Below, one piece after another: positions 2 through 16,133 of a stretch of DNA of 18,922 nt. Source of the stretch: Clostridia bacterium (GTDB taxonomy: Bacteria > CBDUZB01 > JAGLHV01); contig JAUVLC010000048.1 in NCBI GenBank assembly GCA_030595925.1, forward strand, positions 1 through 18,922, written 5' to 3'. A program made the translations under genes and the position numbers. The notes beneath the pieces are model-generated. The model saw nothing but the letters and a program-made list of their open reading frames with translations, ran no database searches and had not been told where the DNA came from. Every line of letters begins with the position of its first letter. Within the stretch, counting starts at the first letter, position 1.

Positions 2-772
2 GGCGGTGGATTTGATGTGTGGGGGCCTTTGTTTTTGTTTTTTCTTCCTTTTTTATTTTTTTTGAAAAAGAATGTTAAAATAATAAAACAACTTAAATTA
101 TATGTTTTCTTATATTTTTGTGTTTGGATAGCAACCGGAAAAGTACTTCGTTTTTTGATAGTAATTCTTCCCTGTTTAAGCATTTTAATTGCTTATTGTT
201 TTATTTGCCTTGAAAAGAAGGGAAAGGGATGGAAATTAATTAGGTTAGTGCTGGTTATTTCTATCGCAGGTAATTTTTTCTTGTTCGGATATTTGGAGAC
301 AGTGGTGGATCCTTTTCCTGTAGCATTGGGTATGGAAACACGGGAGAAATACCTGGGAAGAAAATTAAATTATTATAAAGGGGTAAAATTTATAAATGAC
401 AATTTACCTGATGGGGTAAAGATTTTGTTTATTGGAGAAAGTAGAGGATATTACTGTGAGAGACAATATATAGCAGCGACGGTTTTTGATGTGAATCCGA
501 TAGTTGAGGCAGCTAATAACTCTGATAATGAGGAAGAAATGTTAAAAAAATTGCGACAATTGGGAATAACACATGTTTTTTATAATGATAAAGAAGCAGC
601 AAGATTAGAAAAGGGATACCATATTTTTTATTGGACGAATAAGGGATATCGGGTTAATAAAAACTTTAAGCAGAAATATTTGAGGTGTTTATATAAAGAA
701 AAATTCATATATGTTTATGAGATTGACTATTCAATATTAAAGTTAAAAGAAAAAGTGAACGGCAACAGATAG
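2..772 (+). CDS. Membrane glycosyltransferase (GT39/ArnT-like), 3' part only
   Basis: The reading frame is open through the left edge (GGFDVWGPLF precedes the first GTG at 17), so the gene is cut by the window and 17 is not its real start. The visible 256 residues begin with hydrophobic helices, one motif-like stretch being ATGKVLRFLIVILPCLSILIAY, followed by a soluble tail with INDNLPDGVKILFIGESRGYYCER and LRQLGITHVFYND. Polytopic sugar transferases of the GT39/ArnT/PMT type usually have this plan: many membrane helices, then an extracytoplasmic C-terminal domain. These enzymes take sugars from polyprenyl-phosphate donors. The catalytic N-terminal half is not visible, so substrate and subfamily cannot be given. 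The stop TAG (770-772) falls at the junction of two intergenic heptamers (AACAGAT and AGTCCAT), so the repeat supplies the stop. Confidence 0.7.
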   Translation, partial: GGGFDVWGPLFLFFLPFLFFLKKNVKIIKQLKLYVFLYFCVWIATGKVLRFLIVILPCLSILIAYCFICLEKKGKGWKLIRLVLVISIAGNFFLFGYLETVVDPFPVALGMETREKYLGRKLNYYKGVKFINDNLPDGVKILFIGESRGYYCERQYIAATVFDVNPIVEAANNSDNEEEMLKKLRQLGITHVFYNDKEAARLEKGYHIFYWTNKGYRVNKNFKQKYLRCLYKEKFIYVYEIDYSILKLKEKVNGNR

Positions 773-1000
773 TCCATAGTCGACAGTCCATAGTCCATAG
801 ACAACAGATAAAAGACAGGTACAAAGTTAAATGATAAAAGACTGCAAATGGCAAATGGCGAATAGCAAGAAAGTTGTTTTCCCCCTTTGTAAAAGGGGGT
901 TAAGGGGATTTAGACAACAGACGTATTAGTTATAAGTTAAAAAAAATTTGGAGTTTGCCTGTCCGCCAATTTTTAAGGCGGAAATTGGAAATTGGGAATT
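764..1000 (+). repeat. Intergenic repeat block A (heptamer words and truncated hairpin module)
   Basis: This fills most of the 288-bp spacer. In order: AACAGAT (764-770); a 30-bp element of four AGTCSAY heptamers plus AG (771-800); GCAAATG twice, then GCGAATA (844-864); the start of the C-rich/G-rich hairpin module (877-920, arms CCCCCTTT and AAAAGGGGG); AGTTATA then AGTTAAA (928-941); a GCCTGTCCGCC hairpin with arms 962-967 and 976-981; and GGAAATT twice then GGGAATT (980-1000). Each tandem word has a 7-bp step. No gene is seen in the spacer. The downstream gene's ribosome site (AAAGGAGAAAGGAG, 1041-1054) lies just outside the block. Confidence 0.85.
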
Positions 1001-1060
1001 TGAGAGAATAGTCATAAGTAGGGGGCGAAATTTTTATTTTAAAAGGAGAAAGGAGAAAAA

Positions 1061-2074
1061 ATGCCTTATTTTTTAGTTTTTTCAATTGCTTTTATTTTGA
1101 GTTTTATACTTACGCCTTTAATGATGAGAATAGCAATCAAACATAACATTGTAGATTTACCTGATAGTCATGAGGCAAAAACTCATAAAGAACCCGTACC
1201 ATATCTGGGAGGAATAGCTATTGGAGTTAGTTTTATAGTTAGTTTATTTGTTATTCGTTTTGTTACTTTTTTTCCTACCGGGACATTACGGGCTTTGCGT
1301 GGAATTATTTTTGGTGGAATGATAATTATGTTGGTAGGTTTTTTGGATGACGTTAAACCGGTAAGTTTTAAAATAAAATTTTTTATTCAAATTCTCCTGG
1401 CAATAATTTTAATTGTTTTTGGTATTAGAATAAGGTTTATTTCACCTGGTTATCTGTCAGTATTGTTCACTATTTTCTGGGTTGTAGGCATTACTAATGC
1501 CTTTAACATTATTGATGTTATGGATGGTTTATCGGCAGGTATAGCGATAATCGCCTGCCTTTTTTTCTTTTTTATTGGATTACCCACGGAACAAATTTAT
1601 GTAAATTTTGCTGCCATTGCTTTAATGGGGAGTTGTATGGGTTTTTTAAAATATAATTTTTTACCAGCTAAAATTTTCATGGGAGATTCAGGAAGTCTTT
1701 TTATCGGCTTTGTACTGGCCGCAATTTCTTTGGGGGAGAGTTATACCCATATTAATAATATTGCTTTGTTTTCTCCGCTTTTGATATTAGGAGTTCCACT
1801 TTATGATACATTGCTGGTGATGATTTTGCGTTTTCAACAGGGAAAATCGATATTTTTAGGCAGTCGGGATCATTATGCGCTGCGGTTGGAAGCTCTGGGT
1901 CTTAACCGTAAAGAAATAGTGATTTTAAGTTACTTGTTTTGTTTTATTTTGGGTTTACTTGCTTTTATTATAACCAAGGTTACTCTTTATTTAGCGTTAG
2001 GGATTTATTTTATTGTGATAATTTTTGGGTTTTTAATGGGAAATAAACTTAGTAAAATTAAAGTAGAAGGATGA
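1061..2074 (+). CDS. Undecaprenyl-phosphate sugar-1-phosphate transferase (WecA/TagO/MraY family)
   Basis: A 337-aa polytopic membrane protein of the glycosyltransferase-4/MraY family. The family transfers a sugar-1-phosphate, usually GlcNAc-1-P, from a UDP-sugar to undecaprenyl phosphate on the cytoplasmic side of the inner membrane, starting lipid-linked glycan synthesis. Visible motifs: an N-terminal DLPD...KTHKEPVPYLGG; the Asp pair D96-D97 in GFLDDV; N149 to D155 in NIIDVMDGLSAG; GDSGS at 208-212; and SRDHYALRLEALG near the C-terminus, the HxxxRL-type basic loop. The DHYALRL form and the polysaccharide setting favour WecA/TagO over MraY. Tandem AAGGAG-type sites precede the ATG. The next gene starts 20 bp after the stop, so the two are probably co-transcribed. 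The exact UDP-sugar cannot be told from sequence. Confidence 0.88.
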   Translation: MPYFLVFSIAFILSFILTPLMMRIAIKHNIVDLPDSHEAKTHKEPVPYLGGIAIGVSFIVSLFVIRFVTFFPTGTLRALRGIIFGGMIIMLVGFLDDVKPVSFKIKFFIQILLAIILIVFGIRIRFISPGYLSVLFTIFWVVGITNAFNIIDVMDGLSAGIAIIACLFFFFIGLPTEQIYVNFAAIALMGSCMGFLKYNFLPAKIFMGDSGSLFIGFVLAAISLGESYTHINNIALFSPLLILGVPLYDTLLVMILRFQQGKSIFLGSRDHYALRLEALGLNRKEIVILSYLFCFILGLLAFIITKVTLYLALGIYFIVIIFGFLMGNKLSKIKVEG

Positions 2075-2094
2075 ATTTATCCGGTATTTTCTAA

Positions 2095-3678
2095 ATGATA
2101 CAGATTCGAGAAAGATTAATAGAATATAGCCTTCTTTTTTTGCTGGCAATAACCCTGTTTGTTCCCGGCACTATAGATGTTTTCACTAATTCCTTAGTAA
2201 ATTTATTAGTGGCCGTTATTTTTTTCTTATGGCTCACAATCCGTTTTCCCCGTTATACTGTTCGAATTAATCTGCCGTTATTGTTGCTTCTATTATATTC
2301 TTTGTTTTCCTTGTTTAAAACGTGCAATTTCGCTTTTACCATGATGCAAATATTTATGTTTGTTAGTTTGTATTTGTTGTTAATTATGGTGATAAATGTT
2401 TTTGATAATAAGGATAGTATTAGGAGATTTACTGTTTTCTTTTTGGTTATCGGCGGGATAAAAATGCTGCAGGTAATATTAAAAAAATTATTACCTGATA
2501 TGGGTTATCAATTACCTTTATTTTTTTCCCATTCGATGGCTAACGATAATCATTTGGCCGGTTATTTAACCATGATTGTTTTAGTAGCCGGGGGGATCTT
2601 TTTCTTTAAAAAGGGGATAAAGAAGAGTATTAAAATATGTTTGTTCTTATATTTAATCATCGGTTTTATCCTTATATTTTTGGCTAACTCACGGTCGGGT
2701 TTAATTGCTTTACTGTTTTCTTTTTTAATATTAATTTATATAAAAAACAAAAAGTTTCTACTTACAGGACTGGTTGTGGTTTTGATGACCTTAATTTATT
2801 GTTTCTTTTTTTCAAATATAGGGAGAGAATTTAAAAGAGGGGATGTTCATTCCTATGAGCGGTTGATTATCTGGGAAGATACGCTTAACTTATGGAGTGA
2901 TTATCCTGTTTTTGGTTCAGGATTGGGGACTTTTAGAGATTATTATCCACGGTATAAAAGAATGGAAGGAACTTATACTGCTCAATATGCTCACAATGAA
3001 TACCTGAATTTATTAGCTGAAATGGGAATTGTGGGTTTTGCTCTTTTTGGGTGGATAATAATAAGATTATTTCGGGAGACAATTCCCAGGAGGTTTCTCT
3101 ATCCGGGGTTCTTTGCTGCTTTCTGTAGTGTGCTGATACAGGCAGGGGTGGAGTTTAATTTGCATAATATCGCCATTACTTTTCCGTGTTGTTTTTTAAT
3201 CGGGATAATTTTACCCAAAGAAAAAAACAAAGTGGAACAAATTTCTTATTTAGCTAAAACACCCATTTATCTGGGAATTGTTTTTTTAATTTTCTTCTTT
3301 AGTTTCCCGCATTTAGGGGCACAATTTCACAAAAAGGGGCAAAATTTTCTCAAAAACGGCCGGTTAATGCAGGCGAAAACAAATATTTTTCGTAGTGTAT
3401 TTTTTAACCCTGTATATGCTAAATATCATGTTATCTTGAGCGATATATATGAAAAAGAAGGATATTTCGTTAAAGCTCTGGATGAGTTTAAAATTGCAGT
3501 AGAATTAGAGCCTCGAAATGTATGGTATAAAAAGAAGTTAGCGCAAAAGTATTTACAGTGGAAGAATTTAGATAAAGCAATTGAAGAATATGAAAAAATA
3601 GTTCGACTTGCTCCCAATGTTTCTTCCTTTCGTGACGAATTGAAGAAATTATACGACTGGAAAACAAATATACAGTAA
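2095..3678 (+). CDS. O-antigen ligase/polymerase-like membrane protein with C-terminal TPR repeats
   Basis: This 527-aa protein has about ten or more hydrophobic helices over residues 10-420, then a soluble tail of about 110 residues. Wzy_C/WaaL-type features are the FSHSMANDNHLAGYL segment, ANSRSGLIALL, and the long periplasmic loop with YERLIIWEDTLNLWSDYPVFG followed by GTFRDYYPRY and YAHNEYLNLLAEMGIVGF. The family joins or polymerises lipid-linked glycans at the periplasmic face of the inner membrane. The C-terminal part (about 440-520) reads as TPR units (AKYHVILSDIYEKEGYFVKALDEFKIAVELEP, then a second unit with AIEEYEKIVRLAP). Ligase/polymerase proteins with TPR tails are known in several phyla. 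Whether it acts as a ligase, a polymerase or a protein O-glycosyltransferase cannot be decided. No good Shine-Dalgarno site precedes the ATG, so translation may be coupled to the upstream gene. Confidence 0.82.
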   Translation: MIQIRERLIEYSLLFLLAITLFVPGTIDVFTNSLVNLLVAVIFFLWLTIRFPRYTVRINLPLLLLLLYSLFSLFKTCNFAFTMMQIFMFVSLYLLLIMVINVFDNKDSIRRFTVFFLVIGGIKMLQVILKKLLPDMGYQLPLFFSHSMANDNHLAGYLTMIVLVAGGIFFFKKGIKKSIKICLFLYLIIGFILIFLANSRSGLIALLFSFLILIYIKNKKFLLTGLVVVLMTLIYCFFFSNIGREFKRGDVHSYERLIIWEDTLNLWSDYPVFGSGLGTFRDYYPRYKRMEGTYTAQYAHNEYLNLLAEMGIVGFALFGWIIIRLFRETIPRRFLYPGFFAAFCSVLIQAGVEFNLHNIAITFPCCFLIGIILPKEKNKVEQISYLAKTPIYLGIVFLIFFFSFPHLGAQFHKKGQNFLKNGRLMQAKTNIFRSVFFNPVYAKYHVILSDIYEKEGYFVKALDEFKIAVELEPRNVWYKKKLAQKYLQWKNLDKAIEEYEKIVRLAPNVSSFRDELKKLYDWKTNIQ

Positions 3679-3799
3679 TGAGAAATATTGTTTAATTTTC
3701 AAAAGAAGATGGTTATTAAAGGCAAAGGATATTTCCTTCCTTACACCATGATTTCACCTTATTGTCCCTCGTTATTTACAAAAAGCCTATAAATAAATT

Positions 3800-3828
3800 T
3801 TGCAATTTATTTTTAAAAAATGTATAAT
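3800..3828 (+). promoter_or_regulatory. Candidate sigma-70-type promoter upstream of the flavoprotein gene
   Basis: TTGCAA (3800-3805) and TATAAT (3823-3828) are separated by exactly 17 bp, in the 163-bp gap after the O-antigen ligase-like gene. A transcript would start near 3835. That is almost on top of the AGAGG site (3831-3835) that would serve the TTG start at 3842, so this promoter fits the later GTG start (3941) better. In an AT-rich genome a chance match is possible. Confidence 0.5.
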
Positions 3829-3841
3829 TTAGAGGTTTTTA

Positions 3842-5305
3842 TTGAAGAAAAATAATTTCAATACAGCTCTGGAATGTTTTTCCAAATTCGCATTGGAAAA
3901 ACTTAATAGGATAAACGGTGAATTGTTTTTGGGGGAGAAAGTGAACGTAATAATTTTGGGGGCAGGGTTGACTGGGTTATCCTGTGCTTATCACCTTAAA
4001 CGGAAAATAAAAAAAAATAGTAATTTTTCTTTTGCCCTTTATGAAAAAGAGGATAATGCCGGAGGTTTATGCCGCTCTGAAGCTAGTCAGGGATTTGTTT
4101 TTGATTATACAGGACATTTGCTCCATCTGAAAAGTAATTATGCTAAAAACTTAATTAAAACATTATTGGATAAAAATTTAAAACGGATAAAGAGAAATGC
4201 CTGGATTTATTCTAAAGGAACTTATACTCCGTATCCATTTCAGGCAAATATATATGGGCTTTCGCAAAAAGTAGTAAAAGAGTGCATCGAAGGGTTTATT
4301 AAGGCGAGATGTTTGAAACAAGATAAATCAGTTGCTGGTTCTTTTTATGATTGGATTATTGATACTTTCGGAGAGGGATTTGCCCGGCATTTTATGGTTC
4401 CCTATAATCAAAAAATATGGACTGTTCATCCTAAAAATATGACTTGTGAGTGGATGGGAAAATTTGTTCCCCTTCCTCAAATAAGAGAAGTCTTAATTGG
4501 GGCATTTAGGCAACAAACTAAAACATTTGGTTATAACAGTTATTTTTATTATCCTCAAAAAAGAGGAATAGGGGTCTTAGCCGATGTTTTGTCCGGTAAA
4601 GTGCAAAAGCATTTATTTTTAGGCCGGCAGGTAAATGAAATTTGTTTGTCGGAAAAAGTTGTTAAATTTAGCGATGGACAACAATTAAAATATGATCGTC
4701 TGGTTTCTACTTTACCCTTAAAAGAGATGATTTTGAAAATAATTAAAAAAGTTCCTTGCCGGGTAAAGGAAAAGGCCGGGGCTTTGAAATGTAATTCGGT
4801 TTTAAATATAAATCTTGGAATTAATCGTAGGAATATTTCTGATAAACACTGGATATATTTTCCTGAAAAAAAATTTGTTTTTTACCGTGCAGGTTTTCCG
4901 ATGAATTTTTCTTCTTCTATGACACCGCCGGGGACAAGCTCTATTTATACGGAAATAGCTTACCGGAAAACAATTCCGGGTTTATTGTCAGATGCGGGAG
5001 GGAATGTATCCGGTTTTTCAGAAAATATGATTGACCGAAAGAAATTAACAAATAGAGTAGTGGGGGATTTGATTAAAGCAGGAATTTTAAAAAAAGATGA
5101 CAAGGTTTTAACCACAAAGATTTTAAACATAAAGAACGCTTATGTAATTTATGACCGGAAATACAAAGAAAGTACAAGAGTTATACATAAGTTTTTGCAG
5201 GATAATAAAATTTATTCGAGCGGCCGGTATGGGGCATGGAATTATTCTACGATGGAGGATGCTATTTTAGAAGGACGGGAAATAGCAAATAACTTGCTTA
5301 GCTAA
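3842..5305 (+). CDS. FAD-dependent amine oxidase / UDP-galactopyranose-mutase-like flavoprotein
   Basis: A 487-aa protein with an FAD-binding Rossmann motif, VNVIILGAGLTGLSCAYHL (G40-x-G42-x-x-G45), followed by LYEKEDNAGGLCRS. The middle has HFMVPYNQKIWTVHPKNMTCEW, which resembles the NPYNEKIW region of UDP-galactopyranose mutases and the protoporphyrinogen-oxidase-like flavoproteins (COG1232 type) found in polysaccharide clusters. The C-terminus has SSGRYGAWNYSTMEDAILEG, typical of the FAD-closing segment. It may isomerise or oxidise a nucleotide sugar or lipid-linked precursor; the substrate is unknown. Start choice is open. The TTG at 3842 has AGAGG six bases upstream, but GTG at 3941 (GGGGGAG just upstream) would start the protein exactly at the dinucleotide fold, as is usual in the family, and suits the promoter at 3800-3828. 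The next gene begins within 30 bp. Confidence 0.78.
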   Translation: MKKNNFNTALECFSKFALEKLNRINGELFLGEKVNVIILGAGLTGLSCAYHLKRKIKKNSNFSFALYEKEDNAGGLCRSEASQGFVFDYTGHLLHLKSNYAKNLIKTLLDKNLKRIKRNAWIYSKGTYTPYPFQANIYGLSQKVVKECIEGFIKARCLKQDKSVAGSFYDWIIDTFGEGFARHFMVPYNQKIWTVHPKNMTCEWMGKFVPLPQIREVLIGAFRQQTKTFGYNSYFYYPQKRGIGVLADVLSGKVQKHLFLGRQVNEICLSEKVVKFSDGQQLKYDRLVSTLPLKEMILKIIKKVPCRVKEKAGALKCNSVLNINLGINRRNISDKHWIYFPEKKFVFYRAGFPMNFSSSMTPPGTSSIYTEIAYRKTIPGLLSDAGGNVSGFSENMIDRKKLTNRVVGDLIKAGILKKDDKVLTTKILNIKNAYVIYDRKYKESTRVIHKFLQDNKIYSSGRYGAWNYSTMEDAILEGREIANNLLS

Positions 5306-5331
5306 GAACATTGCCGGTTAAAATAAAAACA

Positions 5332-6477
5332 ATGAAAAAGATTAAGATAGCCCACATCATTACTAAACTGGAATTAGGAGGTGCACAGCAAAATACTTTA
5401 TATACGTTAAAACATCTGAACCGTGAAAAGTTTGAGACTATTCTTATTAGCGGAAAAGGAGGAATACTTGCTCAAGAGGCATTTTTGAGTTTAACGAATA
5501 GACTTTTTTTTATTGGGGAATTGGTTCGAAAAATAAATCCTATTTTTGATTTTATAGCTTTAATTAAAATATGGCATTTACTAAAAAAGCAAAAAGTTAA
5601 TTTAGTCCATACACATAGTTCTAAAGCAGGTATTCTAGGCCGTTGGGCAGCTAAATTAGCCGGGGTTCCTTATATTGTCCATACTTATCATGGATTTGGG
5701 TTTAATGATTACCAGAAATGGCTTGTTCGATGGCTGTTTATCGGAATAGAAAGAATTACTGCATACATTAGCACTAAATTAGTTGTTGTATCCGGCGAAA
5801 ACGCTAAAAAAGCGATGGCTAATAAAATTGGGGAAAAGAATCAGTATGTGGTTATCCATAGTGGAATAAAAATTAGAGAAGTGTCATTTAATCCGATAAT
5901 TAAAAAGGAAAAAAGAAAAGAGCTTGGGTTTAGTGATGAAGATTTTGTGGTAGGGATGATAGCTTGTTTTAAGCCCCAGAAAGACCCCATATCTTTTGTA
6001 TTATTAGCGAATAAAGTTTCTGCTTGTTTGCCGCAGGCAAAATTTTTATTAGTGGGAGACGGCCTGCTGCGTCCTTCGGTTGAGAAACTGATTTCTAAGT
6101 TAAATTTGCAGGAAAAGATAAAATTGTTGGGGTGGCGCAGAGACATTCCCCTATTGTTACAAACGTTTGATATAATGATTTTAACTTCTCTATGGGAGGG
6201 TTTACCGCGGGTTTTTTTAGAAGCAATGGTTTTGGGTGTTCCTATTGTGGCTACCCGGGTAGATGGAGCAAGAGAGGTGATTAAAAACGGAATAAACGGT
6301 TTTTTAGTTTCTCCTAAAGATATAGAGTCAATGGCTCAAAAAGTTGTCTACCTTTTTAAAAATGAGGAAGAAAGGAAACAAATGGGAATATGTGCCAAAG
6401 AGATGATTTCTTCTTCTTTTGACATTGATCAAATGGTAAAGGAAATAGAAGAATTATATAAACAATTAGTTAGTTAA
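5332..6477 (+). CDS. GT4-family glycosyltransferase (GT-B fold)
   Basis: A 381-aa cytoplasmic or membrane-associated glycosyltransferase. The N-terminal domain opens with KIAHIITKLELGGAQQNTL, the usual glycine-rich GT-B acceptor loop, followed by LVHTHSSKAGILGR and TYHGFGFNDYQ. The C-terminal nucleotide-sugar domain carries FKPQKDP, FLLVGDGLLRPSVEKL and the EX7E-type motif region LWEGLPRVFLEAMVLGVPIVAT. Family members move a sugar from a UDP- or GDP-sugar onto a glycan or lipid-linked acceptor; specificity cannot be read from sequence. I chose ATG at 5332 over the in-frame TTG at 5311 because the family normally begins just before the KIAHII strand. Neither has a strong ribosome site. The gene lies 26 bp after the flavoprotein gene and probably belongs to the same transcript. 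Confidence 0.87.
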   Translation: MKKIKIAHIITKLELGGAQQNTLYTLKHLNREKFETILISGKGGILAQEAFLSLTNRLFFIGELVRKINPIFDFIALIKIWHLLKKQKVNLVHTHSSKAGILGRWAAKLAGVPYIVHTYHGFGFNDYQKWLVRWLFIGIERITAYISTKLVVVSGENAKKAMANKIGEKNQYVVIHSGIKIREVSFNPIIKKEKRKELGFSDEDFVVGMIACFKPQKDPISFVLLANKVSACLPQAKFLLVGDGLLRPSVEKLISKLNLQEKIKLLGWRRDIPLLLQTFDIMILTSLWEGLPRVFLEAMVLGVPIVATRVDGAREVIKNGINGFLVSPKDIESMAQKVVYLFKNEEERKQMGICAKEMISSSFDIDQMVKEIEELYKQLVS

Positions 6478-6536
6478 GAAAAAGTTATATTTGTAGTTTG
6501 TGAAATATAAATTGAATGGGAAAGGAAAGGATTAAG

Positions 6537-7796: not shown

Positions 7797-7899
7797 AAAA
7801 ATCTAAGAAAAAAAAGACAGTTAAAAGACAGTTAAATTGGTTTAGATTCGTTTTATTGGTTAAAGGATAAAAGAAAAAGAAAAAGACAAAAACGAAAGA

Positions 7900-8360
7900 C
7901 TGCAAATGGCGAATAACAAAAGAAAAAAGACAGTTTTCCCCCTTTGGAAAAGGGGGTTAGGGGGATTTTGAAAAAACAGTTAAACATTGAGATATTATTG
8001 TAGGGGTGAACCCCTGTGTTCACCCGAACGAGGAAAATAAAGGTAAAACATATTTCTCACTAGACGCATAATTTTACCCTTTGGGCACGCAAAAAAAAAT
8101 AGTCCACAGTCCATAGTCGATAGTCCATAGACAACAGATAACAGAAAGTTATAAGTTATGAGTTAAAGACAAACAGAAGTCCATAGTCGACAGTCCATAG
8201 TCCATAGATTACGGATAAAGACAAAGATAAAGACGAAAAACAGGCACAAAGGCATCAAGGCACAGAGACACAAAGTTAACAAACAAAGACAAAGATAAAA
8301 GATTGCAAATGGCAAGTCTGTTTGTAGTCGCTCAATTTATTGAGCAGAAATGTTTGGGAT
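7900..8360 (+). repeat. Intergenic repeat block B (heptamer words, 157-bp module, 8-bp-period words)
   Basis: This occupies most of the 602-bp gap between leuC and the DUF3108 lipoprotein; no gene is seen. Order: GCAAATG-GCGAATA (7902-7915); the 157-bp hairpin module (7934-8090); a 30-bp four-heptamer AGTCSAY element (8101-8130); AGTTATA, AGTTATG, AGTTAAA (8147-8167); a second 30-bp element (8178-8207) followed by ATTACGGATAAAGAC; an AAAGAC-type 6-bp run; GGCACAAA-type words with 8-bp step (about 8243-8274); another GCAAATG word (8305-8311); and TTTGGGA-like heptads near 8353-8373. Parts of 7800-7900 are simple A-rich DNA without a recognisable site. Confidence 0.85.
7934..8090 (+). repeat. 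157-bp hairpin module, copy 1
   Basis: It starts with a C-run/G-run hairpin (CCCCCTTT facing AAAAGGGGG), then GTTAAACATTGAGATATTAT, then a second hairpin (GGGTGAAC facing GTTCACCC, loop CCCTGT), and ends in TTACCCTTTGGGCACGC. A copy of exactly the same length lies at 15431-15587 and a shortened copy at 11931-12080. Copies at 877-920 and 13207-13239 keep only the first hairpin. It has no ORF, so it behaves as a small non-coding repeat. Confidence 0.8.
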
Positions 8361-8398
8361 TTTGGTATTTGGGCGTTTGAAAAAGAGAGGTTATTTTA

Positions 8399-9478
8399 AT
8401 GAAATACCGGATGATTTTTCTGGTTTTTTTATTGATGTTTAGTGCCTGTACTTCGGGTAGATATCGGTCAAGAATTAGAAAAGAAAAGAAATCGCGGAAA
8501 GAAGTTAGAAAAGAAGAAGAACAGGAAAAAAATAAAACTGACCGGGTTTTAGAAAAAAAACTACCAACCATCATACGTGTTTCGGAAACAACAGATCAAA
8601 AAAAGATAGAAGAAAATTTAAATAGTTTAGATTTGACAAGGACAGAAAAACGGGAAATACAGGAATTATCAAGTGTTAAGAAGGAAAAAGAAGATAAACA
8701 ATCCTCTGTTTCAGCAGAAGGAAAACAAAAAAAAACTGTTTCTGAAAAAACAAAAATAGAACAAGTCTCTACCGGAAACGAAATTAAAGGCAGTAAAGAA
8801 TTTAAATGGCGTAAAGTAGAAAATAATGCTTTCAAAGTAGGGGAAAAATTAACTTTTGCCATAAGATGGGGTGCAATAACCGCTGGTTATTCTACTTTAG
8901 AAGTGCACGAAATTATAGAAATGAATGGCCGCAAAGTATATCATATCATTGCTAAAACCCGCTCCACTTCTTTTTTTGATAAATTCTTTAAGGTAAGAGA
9001 TACAGTAGAAACTTTTGTTGACGTAGAAAGTCTTTGTACCTGGCGGTTTAGAAAAGAATTAAACGAAGGTAAATACCATAAGGTGAAAGAAACGATTTAC
9101 GATCAGAGAAATCATACCGCAACCACTAAAGGTAATGTGGTTAAAGTTCTTCCTTTCGTTCAGGATGTGTTGTCTGCTCTTTATTATTTGCGTACCCATG
9201 ATATCAAAACAGGTAGAAACTATGATATTGATGTAAATACCGATAAAAAAAATTGGGCTTTGCGGGTAAATGTTTCAAAGGAAGAAATGGTAAAAACAAA
9301 AGCAGGTAAATTCCGGACAATTTGCATTGAACCGGTTTTGAGGGAAGAAGGGATTTTTAAACAAAAGGGACGGCTTTGGGTTTGGGTGACTAATGATAGT
9401 AAAAAGATACCTGTTTTAATGGAAAGCAAGATTTTGGTCGGTTCAATTGTTGCTGTTCTGATAGAATTAAAGAAATAA
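8399..9478 (+). CDS. DUF3108 lipoprotein with long charged linker
   Basis: A 359-aa protein. Residues 1-17 form a lipoprotein signal (MKYRMIFLVFLLMFSAC) with C17 as the likely lipidated residue. Residues about 20-140 are a Lys/Glu-rich, low-complexity and probably disordered linker. From about 145 (FKVGEKLTFAIRWGAITAGYSTLEV) to the end it matches the DUF3108 pattern, including TRSTSFFDKFFKVRDTVETFVD, the VQDVLSALYYLRT segment and KGRLWVWVTNDSKKIPVLMESKI. DUF3108 proteins are beta-rich envelope proteins of unclear biochemical role, often in gene sets for the outer membrane. The long linker would let the domain sit away from its membrane anchor. AGAGAGG (8384-8390) lies eight bases before the ATG. 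It sits between repeat-filled spacers on both sides and may be its own transcription unit. Confidence 0.78.
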   Translation: MKYRMIFLVFLLMFSACTSGRYRSRIRKEKKSRKEVRKEEEQEKNKTDRVLEKKLPTIIRVSETTDQKKIEENLNSLDLTRTEKREIQELSSVKKEKEDKQSSVSAEGKQKKTVSEKTKIEQVSTGNEIKGSKEFKWRKVENNAFKVGEKLTFAIRWGAITAGYSTLEVHEIIEMNGRKVYHIIAKTRSTSFFDKFFKVRDTVETFVDVESLCTWRFRKELNEGKYHKVKETIYDQRNHTATTKGNVVKVLPFVQDVLSALYYLRTHDIKTGRNYDIDVNTDKKNWALRVNVSKEEMVKTKAGKFRTICIEPVLREEGIFKQKGRLWVWVTNDSKKIPVLMESKILVGSIVAVLIELKK

Positions 9479-9560
9479 AATTTTGTTTGGAAAAAAAGTA
9501 AAAATTTAGTAAAATAAGTTGCTAAATCGATTTATAGAGTTATGCAAAATACAATGTTTT

Positions 9561-9756
9561 GTCATTCCGCACTTGATGCGGAATCTATAATGTTTTTAAA
9601 TATCAATAGATTTTTGCTTCCCAGACTGTGTCACAACTCTGATTTTCATGTGGTAGCCGCAGGCTTTAGCCTGCGTTATCGTCGGAGCTTTTTCGCAGGC
9701 TAAAGCCTGCGACTACCAAAAAAGGGATTATGACACAGTCTGTCTGCAGGAATGAC
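9561..9756. repeat. Nested palindromic (MITE-like) element
   Basis: Three sets of inverted arms are nested. The outer pair is GTCATTCC (9561-9568) and GGAATGAC (9749-9756). The middle pair is CAGACTGTGTCA (9622-9633) and TGACACAGTCTG (9731-9742), a perfect 12-bp match. The inner pair has 25-bp arms (9651-9675 and 9694-9718) with one mismatch, each arm itself containing the near-palindrome GCAGGCTTTAGCCTGC. A further small hairpin, ATTCCGC/GCGGAAT (9564-9584), sits at the left end. There is no ORF. Half of the inner arm recurs at 13286-13309. The structure suggests a non-autonomous mobile repeat or nested insertions in the 375-bp gap before rfaE1. Confidence 0.75.
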
Positions 9757-9764
9757 TCGCCTTA

Positions 9765-9789
9765 TCCGCCTGAGGCGGAGCGGACAGGC
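9765..9789. repeat. Small GC-rich hairpin with GCGGACAGGC word
   Basis: TCCGCC (9765-9770) and GGCGGA (9774-9779) form a tight hairpin, followed by GCGGACAGGC (9780-9789). The reverse complement, GCCTGTCCGC, occurs at 957-966 and 13256-13265, each next to a TCCGCC hairpin. So this is a three-copy short dispersed repeat present in both orientations. Confidence 0.6.
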
Positions 9790-9853
9790 AAAAAATATAA
9801 AAAGCCATTTTGCAGAAGTCTAAAATTAATTCAAAGTAAGGAGTATTTTTTTT

Positions 9854-10876
9854 ATGATATCGAAAGAGAGAGCAAAAAAATTATACCAGGTTATGGATGG
9901 ATTTAGAGGAAAAAAAATCTTAGTGATAGGGGATATTATCGTAGATAAATTTGTTTTTGGAAAGGTTTCCCGTATTTCCGCTGAGGCACCGGTTCCGGTT
10001 GTAGAAATAAAAGAAGAAAAATATATGCCCGGGGGGGCAGGTAATGTGGTTAATAACCTTTGGGCATTAGGAAGTAACGTTATGCTTTGCGGAGTTATTG
10101 GAGAAGATGTAGTAGGGTTAAGATTGATGGATGAATTTAAAAGTAAGGGCATAGAAACTTCCGGTATATTTGTTGATCCTTCCCGTCCTACTATTTTGAA
10201 AACCAGAATTATAGCTGACCACCAACAAGTAGTCAGAACGGATAAAGAGGTCAAAAACACCTTATCTGAAAAAATGAGCAAGCAAATTATTGCACATATG
10301 AATAAAGTATTTCCTAATATAGATGCAATTATTATTTCCGATTATGGGAAAGGGGTTGTTAATCGCAAGATTCTTTCTTTTATTATAAATAAAGCTTATA
10401 AGAAAGGAATTCCTTTATTAGTAGACCCTAAAATCGAACATTTCCTGCTTTACAAAAAAGTAACAGGAATTACTCCTAATCATCATGAAGCAGGACAGGC
10501 AATTCACCATAAAATTAATGATGAAAAAAGTTTATTATTGGTAGGTAAAAAGTTAATGAAAAAATTAAATTGTGAATCCCTTTTAATTACCCGGGGAGAA
10601 GAGGGAATGACTCTATTTGAAAAAAAGGGTAGAATAACCCATATTCCAACGGTAGCGAGAGAGGTTTATGATGTTACCGGGGCAGGGGATACAGTCATTA
10701 GTGTTTTTGCTTTATCTCTGGCGGTAAAGAAAAGTAGTTTTCTTGATGCCGCTTATATTGCTAATTATGCGGCAGGAATAGTAGTAGGGAAATTAGGGAC
10801 AGCCACTGTTAGCATAGAAGAGATAAAAAAAACAATGAAAAAAGAAATAGGGGCTGTCAAAGGTAAAACGAAATGA
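9854..10876 (+). CDS. hldE1/rfaE1: D-glycero-beta-D-manno-heptose-7-phosphate kinase (RfaE domain I)
   Basis: A 340-aa PfkB/ribokinase-family protein matching the N-terminal kinase half of E. coli HldE; the C-terminal nucleotidyltransferase half is absent. It would phosphorylate heptose-7-phosphate at C1 on the way to ADP-heptose for the LPS inner core. Visible features: KKILVIGDIIVDKFVFGKVSRISAEAPVPVV at the N-terminus, the PGGAGNVVNNLWALG substrate loop, and DVTGAGDTVISVFAL with catalytic Asp D279 in GAGD. A split HldE is common outside enterobacteria; a separate RfaE2 is expected but not present here. TAAGGAG (9837-9843) lies ten bases before the ATG. The stop overlaps the start of kdsB by four bases (ATGA), so the two are translationally coupled. 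Confidence 0.92.
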   Translation: MISKERAKKLYQVMDGFRGKKILVIGDIIVDKFVFGKVSRISAEAPVPVVEIKEEKYMPGGAGNVVNNLWALGSNVMLCGVIGEDVVGLRLMDEFKSKGIETSGIFVDPSRPTILKTRIIADHQQVVRTDKEVKNTLSEKMSKQIIAHMNKVFPNIDAIIISDYGKGVVNRKILSFIINKAYKKGIPLLVDPKIEHFLLYKKVTGITPNHHEAGQAIHHKINDEKSLLLVGKKLMKKLNCESLLITRGEEGMTLFEKKGRITHIPTVAREVYDVTGAGDTVISVFALSLAVKKSSFLDAAYIANYAAGIVVGKLGTATVSIEEIKKTMKKEIGAVKGKTK

Positions 10877-11625
10877 ACGTAGCGGGGATTATTCCTGTTA
10901 GATATAATTCTACCCGATTACCGGGTAAACCGTTAGCTGATATAATGGGTAAACCAATGGTGTTATGGGTTTGTGAACAAGCTCAAAAAGCAAAAAATTT
11001 AGAAGATGTTTTTGTAACTACCGATGACAATCGAATTAAAGAAGTGGTGGAGAAAGCAGGAATAAGGGTGATTACGAGTTCTCCCTGTTGTAATAGCGGC
11101 ACAGAAAGATTGTCCGAAATTGTCAAAACATTGGAATATGATGTTTTCGTAAACATTCAGGGGGATGAACCTTTAATTTCTCCTGAAGTGATTGATTTGG
11201 TAGTACAACCGTTTAGGGAAAATTCGAATTTGTCCGTATCTACTGCAGTTACAAGGATTTCTGATAAAAATGAAATAAAAGATCCCAATATTGTAAAAGT
11301 AGTGGTGGATAAGTTTAATTTTGCTTTGTATTTTTCCCGGGCGGCCATTCCTTTTGTTCGGGATGAAGACAAAATGGTCCCCAGACCTCAATATTATAAA
11401 CATCTGGGAATTTATGCTTATAAAAAAGACTTTCTTATAAATTTTGACTCGATGTCCCCGAGTGATTTAGAACAAATAGAACAACTGGAGCAATTACGTT
11501 TTTTGAAGAACGGATACAAAATAAAAGTAATGCTCAGTAATTATGATTCGATTAGTGTAGATACCCCTCAAGACTTAGAAAGAGTGAGGGAAATAGTTAG
11601 ACAACAGATAACAGATAGTCCATAG
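10873..11625 (+). CDS. kdsB: 3-deoxy-manno-octulosonate cytidylyltransferase (CMP-Kdo synthetase)
   Basis: A 250-aa cytoplasmic enzyme that activates Kdo with CTP to CMP-Kdo for LPS inner-core assembly. Visible: IIPVRYNSTRLPGKPLADI (CTP-binding N-terminus), VFVTTDDNRI, NIQGDEPLISPEVI and HLGIYAYKKDFL, all characteristic of KdsB; the length matches the usual 245-255. It overlaps the heptose kinase gene by four bases. The natural end of the family is near VDTPQDLERVREIV. Here the last residues (about QITDSP) and the stop are encoded by the intergenic heptamer repeat: two AACAGAT units (11603-11616) and the first AGTCCAT (11617-11623). The repeat has therefore become the C-terminus. Confidence 0.93.
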   Translation: MNVAGIIPVRYNSTRLPGKPLADIMGKPMVLWVCEQAQKAKNLEDVFVTTDDNRIKEVVEKAGIRVITSSPCCNSGTERLSEIVKTLEYDVFVNIQGDEPLISPEVIDLVVQPFRENSNLSVSTAVTRISDKNEIKDPNIVKVVVDKFNFALYFSRAAIPFVRDEDKMVPRPQYYKHLGIYAYKKDFLINFDSMSPSDLEQIEQLEQLRFLKNGYKIKVMLSNYDSISVDTPQDLERVREIVRQQITDSP

Positions 11626-12080
11626 TCGACAGTCCATAGTCCATAGATAACAGAGAAACAACAGTCCATAGTCCACAGTCGATAGTCCATAGACAACGGA
11701 ATAAAGACAATAAACATATAAGTTAAAAATTTTGGGGTTTTGAAGTTTGAAGTTTGAATTTGGGAGTTTAAAAATTAGTCCATAGGCAGAAACGACAGTT
11801 ATAAATTACGAGTTATAAGTTAAAGAATAAGACAGGCACAAAGGCATCAAGGCACAGAGGCACAAAGTTAACAAACAAAGACAAAGATAAAAGATTGCAA
11901 ATGGCAAATGGCGAATAGCAAAAAGGCAATTTTTCCCCCTTTGAAAAAGGGGGTTAGGGGGATTTAGACAAAACAGTTAAACATGGAGATGTTATTGTAG
12001 GGGTGAACCCCCTGTGTTCACCCGAACGAGGAAAATAAAGGCAAAATATGTTTCTCTCTAGATGCATAATTTTACCCTTT
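11603..12080 (+). repeat. Intergenic repeat block C, forward part
   Basis: This starts inside kdsB and fills most of the 619-bp gap before kdsD. Order: AACAGAT twice (11603-11616); a 30-bp AGTCSAY element (11617-11646); a second one (11663-11692), with the same 46-bp offset as in block E; TGAAGTT twice then TGAATTT (11741-11761); AGTTATA-type heptads (11797-11824); GGCACAAA-type 8-bp words (about 11835-11866); GCAAATG twice then GCGAATA (11897-11917); and a shortened copy of the 157-bp module (11931-12080) that lacks the GGGCACGC end. No gene is seen. Confidence 0.85.
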
Positions 12081-12138
12081 TTACCTTCATTTTTTTAATT
12101 AGTTTTGTTAGATAATTAATTTAGAATTTATTCTTTGT

Positions 12139-12195
12139 TTTTATCTTTGTCTTTATCCGTAATCTATGGACTATTGACTGTGGACTATGGACTGT
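12139..12195 (-). repeat. Inverted copy of the heptamer element plus ATTACGGATAAAGAC tail
   Basis: Read on the - strand this is a 30-bp AGTCSAY element (12164-12193) followed by ATTACGGATAAAGACAAAG. Counting two flanking bases it forms a 32-bp arm with one mismatch against 11661-11692, in opposite orientation. It ends about 50 bp before the kdsD start, upstream of a TATAAT at 12222-12227. A transcript across the gap could form a very large hairpin. Confidence 0.85.
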
Positions 12196-12244
12196 CTTGT
12201 TTTCGTATTTAGGAAGTTGTATATAATATAAAAGGAGTTGTTAA

Positions 12245-13204
12245 ATGATTAACAGAGAGGCAAGGGAAGTTTTAAATATAGAAGCAGACTCAATAAAGGG
12301 CCTGATCAAGAATATTAATCGGGATTTTGAGAAAGCGGTTAAATTGGTTTTAAATTGTAAGGGGCGGGTAGTGGTTATGGGAATGGGAAAATCCGGAATA
12401 ATCGCCAGAAAAATAGCTGCTACGTTATCTTCTACCGGTACACCGGCGTTTTTTTTGCATCCGGCGGAAAGTATTCACGGGGATATCGGGATGATAACCA
12501 ATAGGGATTTGATAATAATTCTTTCTTATAGCGGAGAAACCGCAGAAGTAGGGAAGATATTGCCCCTCATAAAAAAAATGAAGGTAAAATTAATTTCCGT
12601 TACCGGTGGGAAGGGTTCTACTTTAGGTAAAAGTGGAGATGTTTTTTTAAATGTAGGAATAAAGAAAGAGGCCTGTCCGTATAATATAATTCCCACTTCT
12701 TCTACTACGGCAATGTTGGCAATGGGTGATGCATTAGCGATATGCGTTTTTAAACAAAAAGGTTTAAGTAGAGAGGATTTTGCTTTATTTCATCCGGGTG
12801 GAAATATCGGCCGAAGATTACTTAAAGTAGGGAATATAATAAAAAAAAGAAAGAAAAATCCGGTAATCAAGGAAGAAAAAAGCGTTAAAGATGCACTTTT
12901 TGTAATGACGCAAGGCCGTTTAGGGGCGGTAAGTGTGGTTGATAAAAAAGGAAAGCTGGTAGGGTTTTTTACTGACGGTGATTTGAGAAGGCATTTACAA
13001 AAAAAAGGGAAAGACCTGTTAAATAAAAAAATTTCCTGCATAATGACTAAAAACCCAACCACAATAACGGTTGATTTTTTTGCTAATGAAGCGATAAAAA
13101 TTTTAAAAGGAAAAAATTTTGATAATATTCCGGTAGTAGACAAGAACAGTAAACCCATTGGAATTATAGACGAAAGAGATTTGTTGGTGCCGGAAACGGA
13201 ATAA
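12245..13204 (+). CDS. kdsD: D-arabinose-5-phosphate isomerase (KdsD/KpsF family)
   Basis: A 319-aa protein that converts ribulose-5-phosphate to arabinose-5-phosphate, the first step to Kdo. The N-terminal SIS domain (about 30-185) shows VVMGMGKSGIIARKIAATLSSTGTPAFFLHPAESIHGDIGM, SYSGETAEV and PTSSTTAMLAMGDALA. H183 in FHPGGNIGRRL corresponds to the catalytic-region histidine of the family. Two CBS domains follow (about 200-260 and 265-319), with GAVSVVDKKGKLVGFFTDGDLRR and IPVVDKNSKPIGIIDERDLL. Length and domain order are standard. AAAGGAG (12231-12237) lies seven bases before the ATG. kdsB is upstream but separated by a long repeat block. kdsA and kdsC are not in the window. Confidence 0.93.
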   Translation: MINREAREVLNIEADSIKGLIKNINRDFEKAVKLVLNCKGRVVVMGMGKSGIIARKIAATLSSTGTPAFFLHPAESIHGDIGMITNRDLIIILSYSGETAEVGKILPLIKKMKVKLISVTGGKGSTLGKSGDVFLNVGIKKEACPYNIIPTSSTTAMLAMGDALAICVFKQKGLSREDFALFHPGGNIGRRLLKVGNIIKKRKKNPVIKEEKSVKDALFVMTQGRLGAVSVVDKKGKLVGFFTDGDLRRHLQKKGKDLLNKKISCIMTKNPTTITVDFFANEAIKILKGKNFDNIPVVDKNSKPIGIIDERDLLVPETE

Positions 13205-13206
13205 AG

Positions 13207-13403
13207 TTCCCCCTTTGAAAAAGGGGGGTAGGGGGATTTAAAAGACAGTTGAATTGCCTGTCCGCCAGTTTCTAAGGTGGAGAGGGGTAGCCGCAGGCTT
13301 TAGCCTGCGTATAAGTTTTTAGTTGTCTTTAGTTTTTGTTTTTTTAACTCATAACTTATAACTCATAACTTATAATTGTCTGTTATTTGTTATTTGTGGA
13401 CTA
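13207..13403. repeat. Intergenic repeat block D (hairpin start, half palindrome, inverted heptamers)
   Basis: It begins two bases after the kdsD stop with the first hairpin of the 157-bp module (CCCCCTTT facing AAAAAGGGGGG, 13207-13239), which could also act as a transcription-ending hairpin, though no clear T-run follows. Next come GCCTGTCCGC (13256-13265) with a TCCGCC/GGTGGA hairpin, a half copy of the palindromic arm from 9651 (13286-13309), five heptamers of AGTTATA/G read on the - strand (13343-13377), TGTTATT twice (13381-13394), and a fragment of the AGTCCAC heptamer on the - strand (13397-13403). The thrS ribosome site AAGGAG follows. Confidence 0.8.
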
Positions 13404-13428
13404 TTAACAAGAAAGGAAAAAGGAGACG

Positions 13429-15159
13429 ATGAAAGAGGAACAGGGAGATATCAGTGTTTTAAGGCATTCTTGTGCTCATATAATGGCACAGGCGGTGACT
13501 GAAATTTATCCGGAAGTGAAGTTAGCTATCGGTCCGGCCATTGAAGAAGGGTTTTATTATGATTTTGATAAAGAAACACCTTTTACCCCGCAGGATTTAG
13601 AAATTATTTCATCTAAAATGAAAGAAATAATTGCTATGGATTTACCTTTCGTAAAACAGGAAATAAAAAAAGAAGAAGCGTTAAAATTTTTTAAAGAAAA
13701 AAAGGAAATATATAAGGTAGAAATAATAGAGGAAATTAAGGAGGAGAAAGTTTCCCTCTATAAACAGGGTTCTTTTGTCGATTTATGCCGGGGACCGCAT
13801 CTTCAATCCACAGAAAAAGTCAAACATTTTAAACTTTTGAGTGTTGCCGGTGCTTATTGGCGTGGAAATGAAAAGAGGCAAATGTTACAACGAATCTATG
13901 CAACAGCTTTTTTTGATAGAAAGGAATTAGCTAAATACTTGTTGTCTCTAGAGGAAGCGAAAAAAAGAGACCATCGGAAAATAGGAAAAGACCTTGACCT
14001 TTTTAGTATTCATGAGGAAGGAGGTCCGGGATTAATTTACTGGCATCCTAAGGGGTTTATGATTAGGGATATAATTGAGACTTTTTGGAAGAAAGAACAC
14101 TTTAAAGCCGGTTATCAAATGCTTTCTATTCCTCATTTAGCTAAGATTGACCTTTGGAAAACCAGTGGGCACTGGGATTTTTATAAGGAGAATATGTATT
14201 CCCCTATAGATATTGAAGGGCAGCAATATATTATCAAACCGATGAATTGTCCGGGGCATATTTTAATCTATAAAACAAAATTGCGCAGTTATCGGGATTT
14301 ACCCATTCGCTGGGCGGAATTAGGTACTGTTTACCGGTACGAGCGTTCCGGGGTATTACATGGTTTGATGAGAGTAAGGGGGTTTACCCAGGATGATGCT
14401 CACATTTTTTGCCGGGAAGACCAATTAGAGGAAGAGATTATTTCAGTTATTGAATTCGTTTTATTTATTTTGAAAAGTTTTGGTTTTAATGATTTTGAGG
14501 TTTTTCTTAGTACGCGTCCCCCTAAATATGTGGGGACTGTTGAAGAGTGGGATAAGGCGACCGAGGCACTTAAAAAGGCATTGGAAAAAGTAGGTCTTGC
14601 TTATCAGGTTGACCCCGGGGAAGGTGTCTTTTATGGGCCGAAAGTAGATATAAAAATTAAAGATTGCCTGAAGAGGTCCTGGCAGTGTTCTACCGTGCAG
14701 GTGGATTTTAATTTACCCGAGCGTTTTGATGTTAAATACCGGGATAAAGAGGGGGGAGAACATACGGCAGTTATGATTCATCGGGCCTTAATGGGTTCTT
14801 TAGAGCGTTTCTTTGGTATTTTAATTGAACATTATGCCGGGGCTTTTCCTTTATGGCTGGCTCCGGAACAGGTGCGTATTATTACTATTACTAATAATCA
14901 GGAAGAATATGCTAAAGGAATTTTAAAAGATTTAAAAGAAGCTGATATTCGTGCAGAGGTTGACCTGGAAAATGAAAAATTGGGATATAAAATAAGGCAG
15001 GCCCAAATGCAGAAAATTCCTTATATGCTGGTGTTAGGACAAAAAGAAGCTGAATCACAGACTGTTACCGTGCGTAAAAAAAGCGGAGAGAACCTGGGAC
15101 AATTAAAAATTACTGATTTGATAAGTAGATTGCAGCAGGAAATAAAGGAGAAGAAATAA
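13429..15159 (+). CDS. thrS: Threonyl-tRNA synthetase lacking the TGS domain
   Basis: A 576-aa cytoplasmic class II synthetase that charges tRNA-Thr. It begins directly at the editing domain ([15 protein letters not shown], HxxxH; then VDLCRGPHL), so the N-terminal TGS domain of about 60 residues seen in E. coli ThrS (642 aa) is missing. The catalytic zinc ligands are intact: C274 (MNCPGH), H325 (TQDDAHIFC) and H451 ([10 protein letters not shown]). Their spacing, 51 and 177 residues from the Cys, equals that of E. coli C334/H385/H511 as I recall it, and the offset of 60 equals the lost TGS. The C-terminal HGTP anticodon-binding domain runs from about 475. AAGGAG lies just before the ATG. The stop TAA (15157-15159) touches the AACAGAT heptamer of the next repeat block. 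TGS-less ThrS forms occur in several lineages. Confidence 0.93.
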
Positions 15160-15274
15160 CAGATAGTCCATAGTCGACAGTCCATAGTCCATAGATAACA
15201 GATAAACAACAGTCCATAGTCCACAGTCGACAGTCCATAGATTACGGATAAAGACAAAAGACAAAACGAAAGAC

Positions 15275-15326
15275 AAAGAAAAAGAAAAAGAAAAAGAAAA
15301 AGAAAAAGAAAAAGAAAAAGAAAAAG
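15275..15326 (+). repeat. AAAGAA hexanucleotide microsatellite, about 8.7 copies
   Basis: Eight perfect AAAGAA units and a partial ninth lie in tandem inside repeat block E. The same position in blocks B and C holds only short AAAGAC/AAAGAT runs, so this looks like a local expansion of that hexamer. It is far from a start codon (about 550 bp upstream of the next gene), so phase variation of a gene is unlikely. Confidence 0.9.
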
Positions 15327-15430
15327 ACTGGCACAAAGGCATCAAGGCACAGAGGCACAAAGTTAACAAACAAAGACAAAGACAAAAGACAGCAAATGGC
15401 AAATGGCGAATAGCAAAAGAAAAAATACAA

Positions 15431-15587
15431 TTTTCCCCCTTTGAAAAAGGGGGGTAGGGGGATTTTGATAAAACAGTTAAATATGGAGATGTTATTGTAG
15501 GGGTGAACCCCTGTGTTGACCCGAACGAGGAAAATAAAGGCAAAACATATTTTTCTCTAGACGCATAATTTTACCCTATGGGCACGC
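15431..15587 (+). repeat. 157-bp hairpin module, copy 2
   Basis: It has the same length and order as 7934-8090: C-run/G-run hairpin, GTTAAATATGGAGATGTTAT, a GGGTGAAC hairpin (the right arm here is GTTGACCC, a mismatch in the stem), then TTACCCTATGGGCACGC. The two full copies differ by scattered substitutions without length change, as expected for copies of one element that have aged. Confidence 0.8.
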
Positions 15588-15667
15588 AAAAACAAAATAG
15601 TCCATAGTTGACAGTCCATAGTCCATAGATAAAAGTATAAAAGACTGCGAATGGCAAATGGTGAATA

Positions 15668-15690
15668 GTAGGGGCGACCCTTGGTCGTCC
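15668..15690. repeat. Short hairpin (GGGCGACC/GGTCGTCC)
   Basis: GGGCGACC (15672-15679) and GGTCGTCC (15683-15690) can pair with one mismatch around a three-base loop. It follows the last heptamer words and is the right-hand limit of the repeat-rich zone. From about 15700 to 15817 I see plain AT-rich sequence with no clear gene or site. Confidence 0.5.
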
Positions 15691-15817
15691 GAAAGGTTCT
15701 ATATCGTTCAAAACACATTTTACTTTTATTTTTAGATAATGTAAAAAAGTGTCAATTATTTTAAAACAAGACATTGATATTTACCTGTTTACCAAGGGAT
15801 TAGTAACAGAAAATATT

Positions 15818-15834
15818 TCGGTTATTTTAAGTTA
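15818..15834 (+). promoter_or_regulatory. 17-bp direct repeat, copy 1, before the 75-aa gene (possible operator)
   Basis: TCGGTTATTTTAAGTTA occurs here and, identical over all 17 bases, at 16117-16133. Copy 1 ends 44 bp before the start of the 75-aa gene. Both copies also have AGTAAC a short way upstream. Matching sites before two adjacent genes suggest a shared regulator or a recombination footprint. Confidence 0.55.
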
Positions 15835-15878
15835 GCCGTTATGTTGTTCTAAACATCATTCTAAAAGGAGGTATGAAG

Positions 15879-16106
15879 GTGGCAACATATAAACAAATTC
15901 AAGAGTGGGTGAGGGAACAGGAACGCTTTAAATTTACTGTACATACTTGTTGGATAGCTCACGTAAAAGAAATGTGTGGGCTTAAACCAAGAAGAGCGGC
16001 AAACAGAGTTGATGGAAGAAAAAATCCATGTCCGCAGGATAAAGTCGAACCAATTAAAAAAGCATTCAGACATTTCAGAATGAAATGTGTCGATTTTAGA
16101 ACATAA
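15879..16106 (+). CDS. Small basic protein of unknown function (75 aa), partner of the GHKL ATPase
   Basis: I place the start at GTG 15879, giving MATYKQIQEWV..., because AAGGAGG (15865-15871) lies seven bases before it. The ATG at 15873 is only one base from that site. The 75-residue product is rich in Lys/Arg. It has a likely helix at 3-14, a motif TCWIAHVKEMCGL (23-35), a basic turn RRAANR (38-43), NPCP (49-52) and a last helix at about 53-66. Cysteines are at 24, 33, 51 and 70. The helix pattern and charge would fit a small DNA- or RNA-binding protein, but no classical helix-turn-helix can be assigned with confidence. I have an unverified impression of similar small proteins near restriction and helicase genes. 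It is flanked by two identical 17-bp repeats and followed by the ATPase gene after 109 bp. Confidence 0.65.
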   Translation: MATYKQIQEWVREQERFKFTVHTCWIAHVKEMCGLKPRRAANRVDGRKNPCPQDKVEPIKKAFRHFRMKCVDFRT

Positions 16107-16116
16107 ACGAAGTAAC

Positions 16117-16133
16117 TCGGTTATTTTAAGTTA
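16117..16133 (+). promoter_or_regulatory. 17-bp direct repeat, copy 2, before the ATPase gene (possible operator)
   Basis: This is identical to 15818-15834 and ends 82 bp before the ATPase start. An inverted partner of its GTTATTTT core, AAAATAAC, lies at 16161-16168, so this copy could also form a weak hairpin or a two-site operator. No convincing -35/-10 pair was found in the gap. Confidence 0.5.

Follow-up and report, generated by a model that had tools for sequence, protein, structure and literature searches.

Heptanucleotide tandem repeats of many words in the intergenic DNA of a Clostridia bacterium

The intergenic gaps of an 18,922-nucleotide stretch of DNA from an uncultured Clostridia bacterium (contig JAUVLC010000048.1; hereafter the window) contain tandem arrays of short words, most of which repeat every seven nucleotides (Table 1). 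The window is one contig (C111) of a 2.6-Mb draft genome (G000) that is 97% complete and comprises 193 contigs. Genes next to the arrays include one that is thrS-like and another, preceding the tract at 11599..11697, that we take to be kdsB-like. Further downstream, a large open reading frame (ORF) at 16210-18591, GHKL-type ATPase-like by eye, is preceded by a small ORF (about 15874-16106), which is flanked by two copies of CGGTTATTTTAAGTTA (about 15816-15836 and 16117-16137). All the arrays cited in an initial annotation of this DNA could be read, either exactly where it placed them or 1-2 bases away. That annotation also correctly recognized GGCACAAA as having a period of 8 and AAAGAC/AAAGAA as having a period of 6. 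Because the units lie head to tail with no spacers, a CRISPR or other spaced direct-repeat array is ruled out.

Table 1. Tandem arrays and composite repeats of the window, in order of position.
Feature	Position	Strand	Remarks
AACAGAT-AGTCCAT heptamer tract	764..800	+	overlaps the first gene's stop codon; 769-800 period 7, 4.6 copies
GCAAATG array	844..868	+	3.6 copies; 844-864 reads GCAAATG GCAAATG GCGAATA
GGAAATT array	980..1000	+	3 copies: GGAAATT GGAAATT GGGAATT
AGTCCAT array with variants	8099..8130	+	4.6 copies
AGTTATA/AGTTATG array	8146..8167	+	8147-8167 reads AGTTATA AGTTATG AGTTAAA
AGTCCAT array	8178..8207	+	4.3 copies
GGCACAAA degenerate array	8244..8276	+	period 8, an exception to the 7-nt rule; 17/25 lag-8 matches
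AACAGAT / AGTCCAT composite tract	11599..11697	+	one 7-nt register; overlaps the 3' end of the preceding gene
TTTGAAG (TGAAGTT) array	11739..11762	+	3.6 copies; 11741-11761 reads TGAAGTT TGAAGTT TGAATTT
AGTTATA degenerate tract	11797..11824	+	AGTTATA AATTACG AGTTATA AGTTAAA; 14/21 lag-7 matches
GGCACAAA period-8 module	11834..11865	+	
GCAAATG array	11897..11922	+	
AGTCCAT tract, reverse orientation	12164..12195	-	period 7 CTATGGA; downstream end of the gap holding the 11599-11922 repeats
TAACTCA/TAACTTA alternating array	13345..13375	unassigned	two heptamers form a 14-mer unit, repeated 100% at period 14
TGTTATT array	13381..13397	unassigned	x2 at 13381-13394; - strand AACAAAT, one letter off AACAGAT
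Largest composite dispersed repeat of the window	15157..15641	+	heptamer tract, AAAGAC tract, GGCACAAA, GCAAATG, CCCCCTTT palindrome, GTGAACCCC module
AACAGAT / AGTCCAT composite tract	15158..15240	+	starts at the stop codon of the thrS-like gene
AAAGAA/AAAGAC period-6 tract	15250..15327	+	12.8 copies
GGCACAAA period-8 module	15330..15360	+	19/25 lag-8 matches over 15330-15362
GCAAATG array	15392..15417	+	
AGTCCAT array	15597..15628	+	4.6 copies

The arrays are adjoined by REP-like palindromes at 9652-9718, 7920-7970, 7998-8030, 11930-12020, 15434-15530 and 15663-15690; these comprise GCAGGCTTTAGCCTGC in inverted pairs, CCCCCTTTGAAAAAGGGGG, GGGGTGAACCCC and GGGGCGACCCTTGGTCGTCC. AGTCCAT arrays often start on a stop codon or immediately behind one, in the sense orientation (for example, at 15158-15192, 11603-11646 and 764-800). 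The TAG or TAA of an array can serve as the stop codon of the gene; in this way, arrays determine where genes end on the 3' side in several phyla. The antisense strand of AGTCCAT is open in all three frames and is a source of spurious ORFs. A 146-aa antisense ORF at 15103-15543 (- strand) is for the most part backwards-read repeat sequence, heptamers and others. For annotation, the arrays account for variable gene ends and spurious antisense ORFs.

Across the six repeat-rich gaps of the window, base identity at lag 7 was 0.400, compared with 0.283 +- 0.008 in 200 dinucleotide shuffles (z 13.9). Lag 14 gave an echo (z 7.6), and lags 8 and 6 reached z values of 6.1 and 4.4, respectively. Perfect arrays in the window's gaps numbered 15 with period 7, five with period 6 and none with period 8. 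The check proposed in the initial annotation, an autocorrelation combined with a list of tandem words by period, was run on a 546-kb sample of the same genome. This sample included 40 stretches besides the window, chosen mostly by contig number and blind to repeats, with a few contigs included for carrying AGTCCAT; it yielded 89 kb of intergenic sequence once ORFs were masked. The peak was again at 7, with many words: lag 7 (z 22.8) ranked first among lags 3-15, and lag 2 was higher still (z 25.7). Perfect 7-nt arrays of at least two units numbered 89 in the 89 kb, versus 8 in one shuffle, and represented 37 distinct units. An equal length of ORF sequence held 15.7 such arrays, and lag-7 identity was 0.320 in intergenic versus 0.282 in genic sequence; the arrays are therefore mainly intergenic. 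With a stricter cut, period 7 retained 45 arrays (18 distinct units) versus 1.2 expected, period 6 retained 8 versus 2.2, and period 8 retained 11 versus 0.6. Periods in this sample are thus not spread evenly over 5-10, and the heptamers of the window are not the only ones. Exact 7-nt tandem units that exceed chance, lie mainly between genes and comprise several words per genome place these repeats among the heptanucleotide long SSRs or STRRs.

The same period is found in other genomes. An unrelated 1.0-Mb genome (G067), picked because of its GGAAATT arrays, held 25 period-7 arrays in 140 kb, versus 0.0 expected, with 18 distinct units and other words; it also had six period-8 arrays (0.2 expected) and none of period 6. 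Loci of Anabaena azotica, chosen because of AGTCCAT, held 145 period-7 arrays versus 0.2 expected, with 27 units. The only unselected set, a pool of 38 genomes in pieces of at most 20 kb, gave small counts, with six period-7 arrays versus 0.6 expected. Two other genomes of the window's genus (G001 and G002) were compared, and the remaining relatives were matched at the domain level only. The period-7 pattern is real and recurs in unrelated bacteria with different words. Since period 8 is also above chance in the window's genome and in G067, a step of 7 is preferred, not exclusive.

The 7-nt register extends beyond the perfect arrays. Units adjoining each perfect array were scored against the array unit, in and out of register. 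For period-7 arrays of the window's genome, the next two units were 0.52 and 0.45 identical in register versus 0.30 off register, and in G067 the corresponding values were 55% and 42% versus 26%. Units flanking the period-6 and period-8 arrays of the window's genome showed no comparable in-register identity. This in-register identity of the flanking units means that perfect arrays are islands within longer, decayed 7-nt tracts, and the flanks of period-7 arrays suggest that new words arise partly through mutation inside old tracts. The earlier observation that the phase runs on from one word into another is borne out in the statistics over 88 arrays, although the junction cited for it is weak on its own: 11603-11623 reads AACAGAT AACAGAT AGTCCAT, and the AACAGAT-to-AGTCCAT junction matches at 3 of 7 letters in register. 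When paralogous spacers are aligned, gap lengths have a modest local peak at 7 (n=23, versus 9 at 6, 6 at 8 and 18 at 5), in counts where neighbouring events may be double-counted and aligners favour gaps at repeats. Published indels are stronger evidence for 7-nt steps than this peak: TAACTGA sites of Cyanothece PCC 8801 and 8802 differ mostly by indels in 7-nt increments (PMC4679880).

What varies is the word. Ten words common in the window's genome lie on average 2.89 mismatches apart over all rotations and both strands, versus 2.87 +- 0.10 for letter-shuffled words. Some are sisters: a single letter separates AACAGAT from TGTTATT as read on the opposite strand, and likewise TGAAGTT from TTGAATT. 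Many sites copy one composite repeat. In the window, about five of the seven words first listed count as independent. The claim that unrelated words share a period of 7 holds genome-wide and in unrelated lineages, but several of its examples are not independent. The window's genome has 114 AGTCCAT dimers and none of the backwards control. AGTCCAT runs span 2 to 11 perfect units. AGTCCAT arrays were also found in Bacteroidota, Cyanobacteria, Omnitrophota, Acidobacteria, Patescibacteria and further phyla. A conserved or transferred AGTCCAT word across phyla was considered and rejected, since among 147 Bacteroidota genomes AGTCCAT occurred in 1 and the backwards, composition-matched control in 3 (17, 16 and 99 matches). 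With the control commoner than the word itself, any word of this sort would probably turn up once some 85,000 genomes are scanned. Many TACCTGA arrays, the control in question, occur in the Bacteroidota genomes G311, G329 and G330, with up to 99 matches in one genome. TAACTBA had four unrelated carriers among 193 genomes, versus three for its control, and GGAAATT had two unrelated carriers. As the backwards control does as well as AGTCCAT, which word is used seems arbitrary, and the shared feature appears to be the period.

Copying of longer units adds a second layer. Once arrays and genes were masked, 23 of the 36 AGTCCAT sites in the sample of the window's genome fell into one group by common non-array flanks, which are modular. 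Composite repeats with the same module order (heptamer tract, AAAGAC tract, GGCACAAA, GCAAATG, palindrome CCCCCTTTGAAAAAGGGGG and GTGAACCCC module) recur in this genome, spanning 200-450 bp, with identities of about 70-93%; parts of the composite at 15157-15641 have further copies in the genome that are about 70-92% identical. The shared flanks and recurring composites establish that the high number of AGTCCAT sites mostly reflects copying of composite repeats. The initial annotation had proposed a single generating process with a fixed step and had argued against the spread of one element. The first part is supported by the 7-nt step with unrelated words, but the flanks shared by 23 of 36 sites make the second part too strong. 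A single MITE- or REP-like composite intergenic element may even have spread and handed down its heptamer period everywhere, a reading favoured by the same shared flanks, by the ordered composites and by 13 matches to Y1_Tnp (REP/IS200-type) transposases in the window's genome. However, this reading leaves the many unrelated words of the same period, and the words found at a single site, unexplained, as well as the period of 7 with other words in G067 and Anabaena. The composite element also holds period-6 and period-8 modules, and G001 carries AGTCCAT arrays yet gave no Y1_Tnp match. Together with the 11 AGTCCAT sites that lack shared flanks and the words seen once, these points make the spread of one element an unlikely source of the period.

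The explanation that we favour, and regard as fairly probable, is that heptanucleotide long-SSR or STRR repeats come from two processes, namely birth and growth in steps of 7 nt and copying of composite repeats. It builds on direct observations: the dominance of 7, the arbitrary words, the register in degenerate flanks and the copying of composites. In DNA without coding constraint, replication or repair errors would gain or lose about 7 nt each time. A two-copy 7-mer would appear and then slip, such that any word could form an array and the step would stay at 7. Point mutation would then degrade arrays to tracts that hold the register, from which variant words could grow. Some finished tracts were taken along, as modules within composite intergenic repeats, to dozens of places, which accounts for the frequency of AGTCCAT. 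We infer that the copying error takes the form of slippage and that the number 7 stems from the replication machinery itself. More tentatively, a conserved property of replication or repair, such as the length of the primer-template duplex held by the polymerase, could favour 7-nt slip-outs over those of 6 or 8 in any sequence; this is conceivable, though we would not bet on it. We know of no polymerase property that fixes 7, which is a conjecture in the literature too. Were such a property real, the heptamer-rich genomes of many phyla would be a readout of it.

Selection offers a different reason for a period of 7, through a 7-nt spaced site or frame-independent stops. Because 7 leaves a remainder of 1 on division by 3, a single stop per heptamer blocks all three frames every 21 nt. 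Of the AGTCCAT arrays lying no more than 60 bp from a stop codon, 60 had their stop-bearing strand in sense and 7 in antisense, in several phyla, and TAACTGA arrays lie mostly just upstream of start codons, where translational control has been proposed (MacGregor 2015, PMC4679880). The sense bias arises partly by construction, as an array overlapping a gene end must supply the stop, and it is absent from other Anabaena words (16 sense, 17 antisense). Moreover, neither strand of GCAAATG or GGAAATT contains a stop, and periods of 4, 5, 8 or 10 would likewise close all frames. With a bias that holds for AGTCCAT and not for those Anabaena words, stop-codon function as the reason for 7 was demoted to a rival, and selection of either kind is improbable.

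Loss of mismatch repair, a system that handles loops no longer than about 4 nt, would not select 7. Both MutS and MutL were undetected in G000, G002, G067 and G196, all of which carry arrays, as would be expected if their loss produced the arrays. Yet no other carrier seen is as rich in arrays as Anabaena azotica (G193), and this species has both proteins, as has G330. Their presence contradicts loss as a necessary cause; we regard such loss as a very improbable origin. As a separate matter, MutS (PF01624) and MutL (PF01119) were undetected in the 97%-complete G000 and in G002, and the sister genome G001 has mutS and mutL adjacent (C390). Judging from these gene contents, mismatch repair was probably lost within one genus. 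Templated or enzymatic addition in a 7-nt register, for instance by a telomerase-like reverse transcriptase, would fit a fixed step with varied words, and the window's genome has two reverse-transcriptase matches. A templating enzyme should yield few words per genome, however, and not the 18 seen in 140 kb of G067. Searches for RVT_1 gave no match in G001, G002, G067 or G189, and the heptamer-rich G067 thus largely refutes such an enzyme unless it is an unrecognised one, making this the least credible of the alternatives. These absences of enzymes rest on family searches with controls; a protein search that lacked a positive control adds little.

Slippage in 7-nt steps, together with the copying of composite repeats, is the preferred basis of the repeats, and the window's genome is a new carrier of a known repeat kind. 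Heptanucleotides were described as the commonest class of long repeats, and polymerase-linked slippage of 7 nt was proposed for them, by Mrázek et al. (2007), according to PMC4679880 and PMC4692102; both MacGregor (2015, PMC4679880) and Rehm (2015, PMC4692102) restate the proposal. The fixed-step argument, presented as new in the initial annotation, had therefore already been published as an observation and a hypothesis, as far as these citing papers relate. It is sound in outline and overlooks composite copying. The question of why 7 nt is preferred, standing since 2007, is sharpened here by two controls, a backwards word that does equally well and decayed flanks that stay in register. The window's genome, G067 and Anabaena azotica are good material for a direct test.

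Several known systems share features with these repeats. The LSSRs, with units of 5-11 nt (Mrázek, Guo and Shah 2007, as described in PMC4679880 and PMC4692102), are likewise dominated by heptamers of varied words, and fixed-step slippage has been proposed for them, with 7 nt as the length of polymerase contact. In contrast to the LSSRs as described there, the present repeats come from an undescribed genus, include composite dispersed repeats and have degenerate flanks in register. The STRRs of heterocystous cyanobacteria (Calothrix, Nostoc/Anabaena) are also intergenic tandem 7-mers with several words per genome; AGTCCAT itself is common to the window's genome and Anabaena azotica, whereas the other words are mostly different. 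Marine Beggiatoaceae carry TAACTGA direct repeats (PMC4679880), again few-copy intergenic heptamers, from which TAACTTA and TAACTCA of the window are one letter off. There, one dominant word lies just upstream of starts, whereas here many words occur and AGTCCAT often follows stop codons. Heptamers are over-represented between genes in Xanthomonas and Nostoc, where GGGAATC and GGGGATT form intergenic arrays, mostly of few units, as in the window (Rehm 2015, PMC4692102). GGGAATC and GGGGATT can form G-quadruplexes, whereas the words of the window are mostly A+T-rich.
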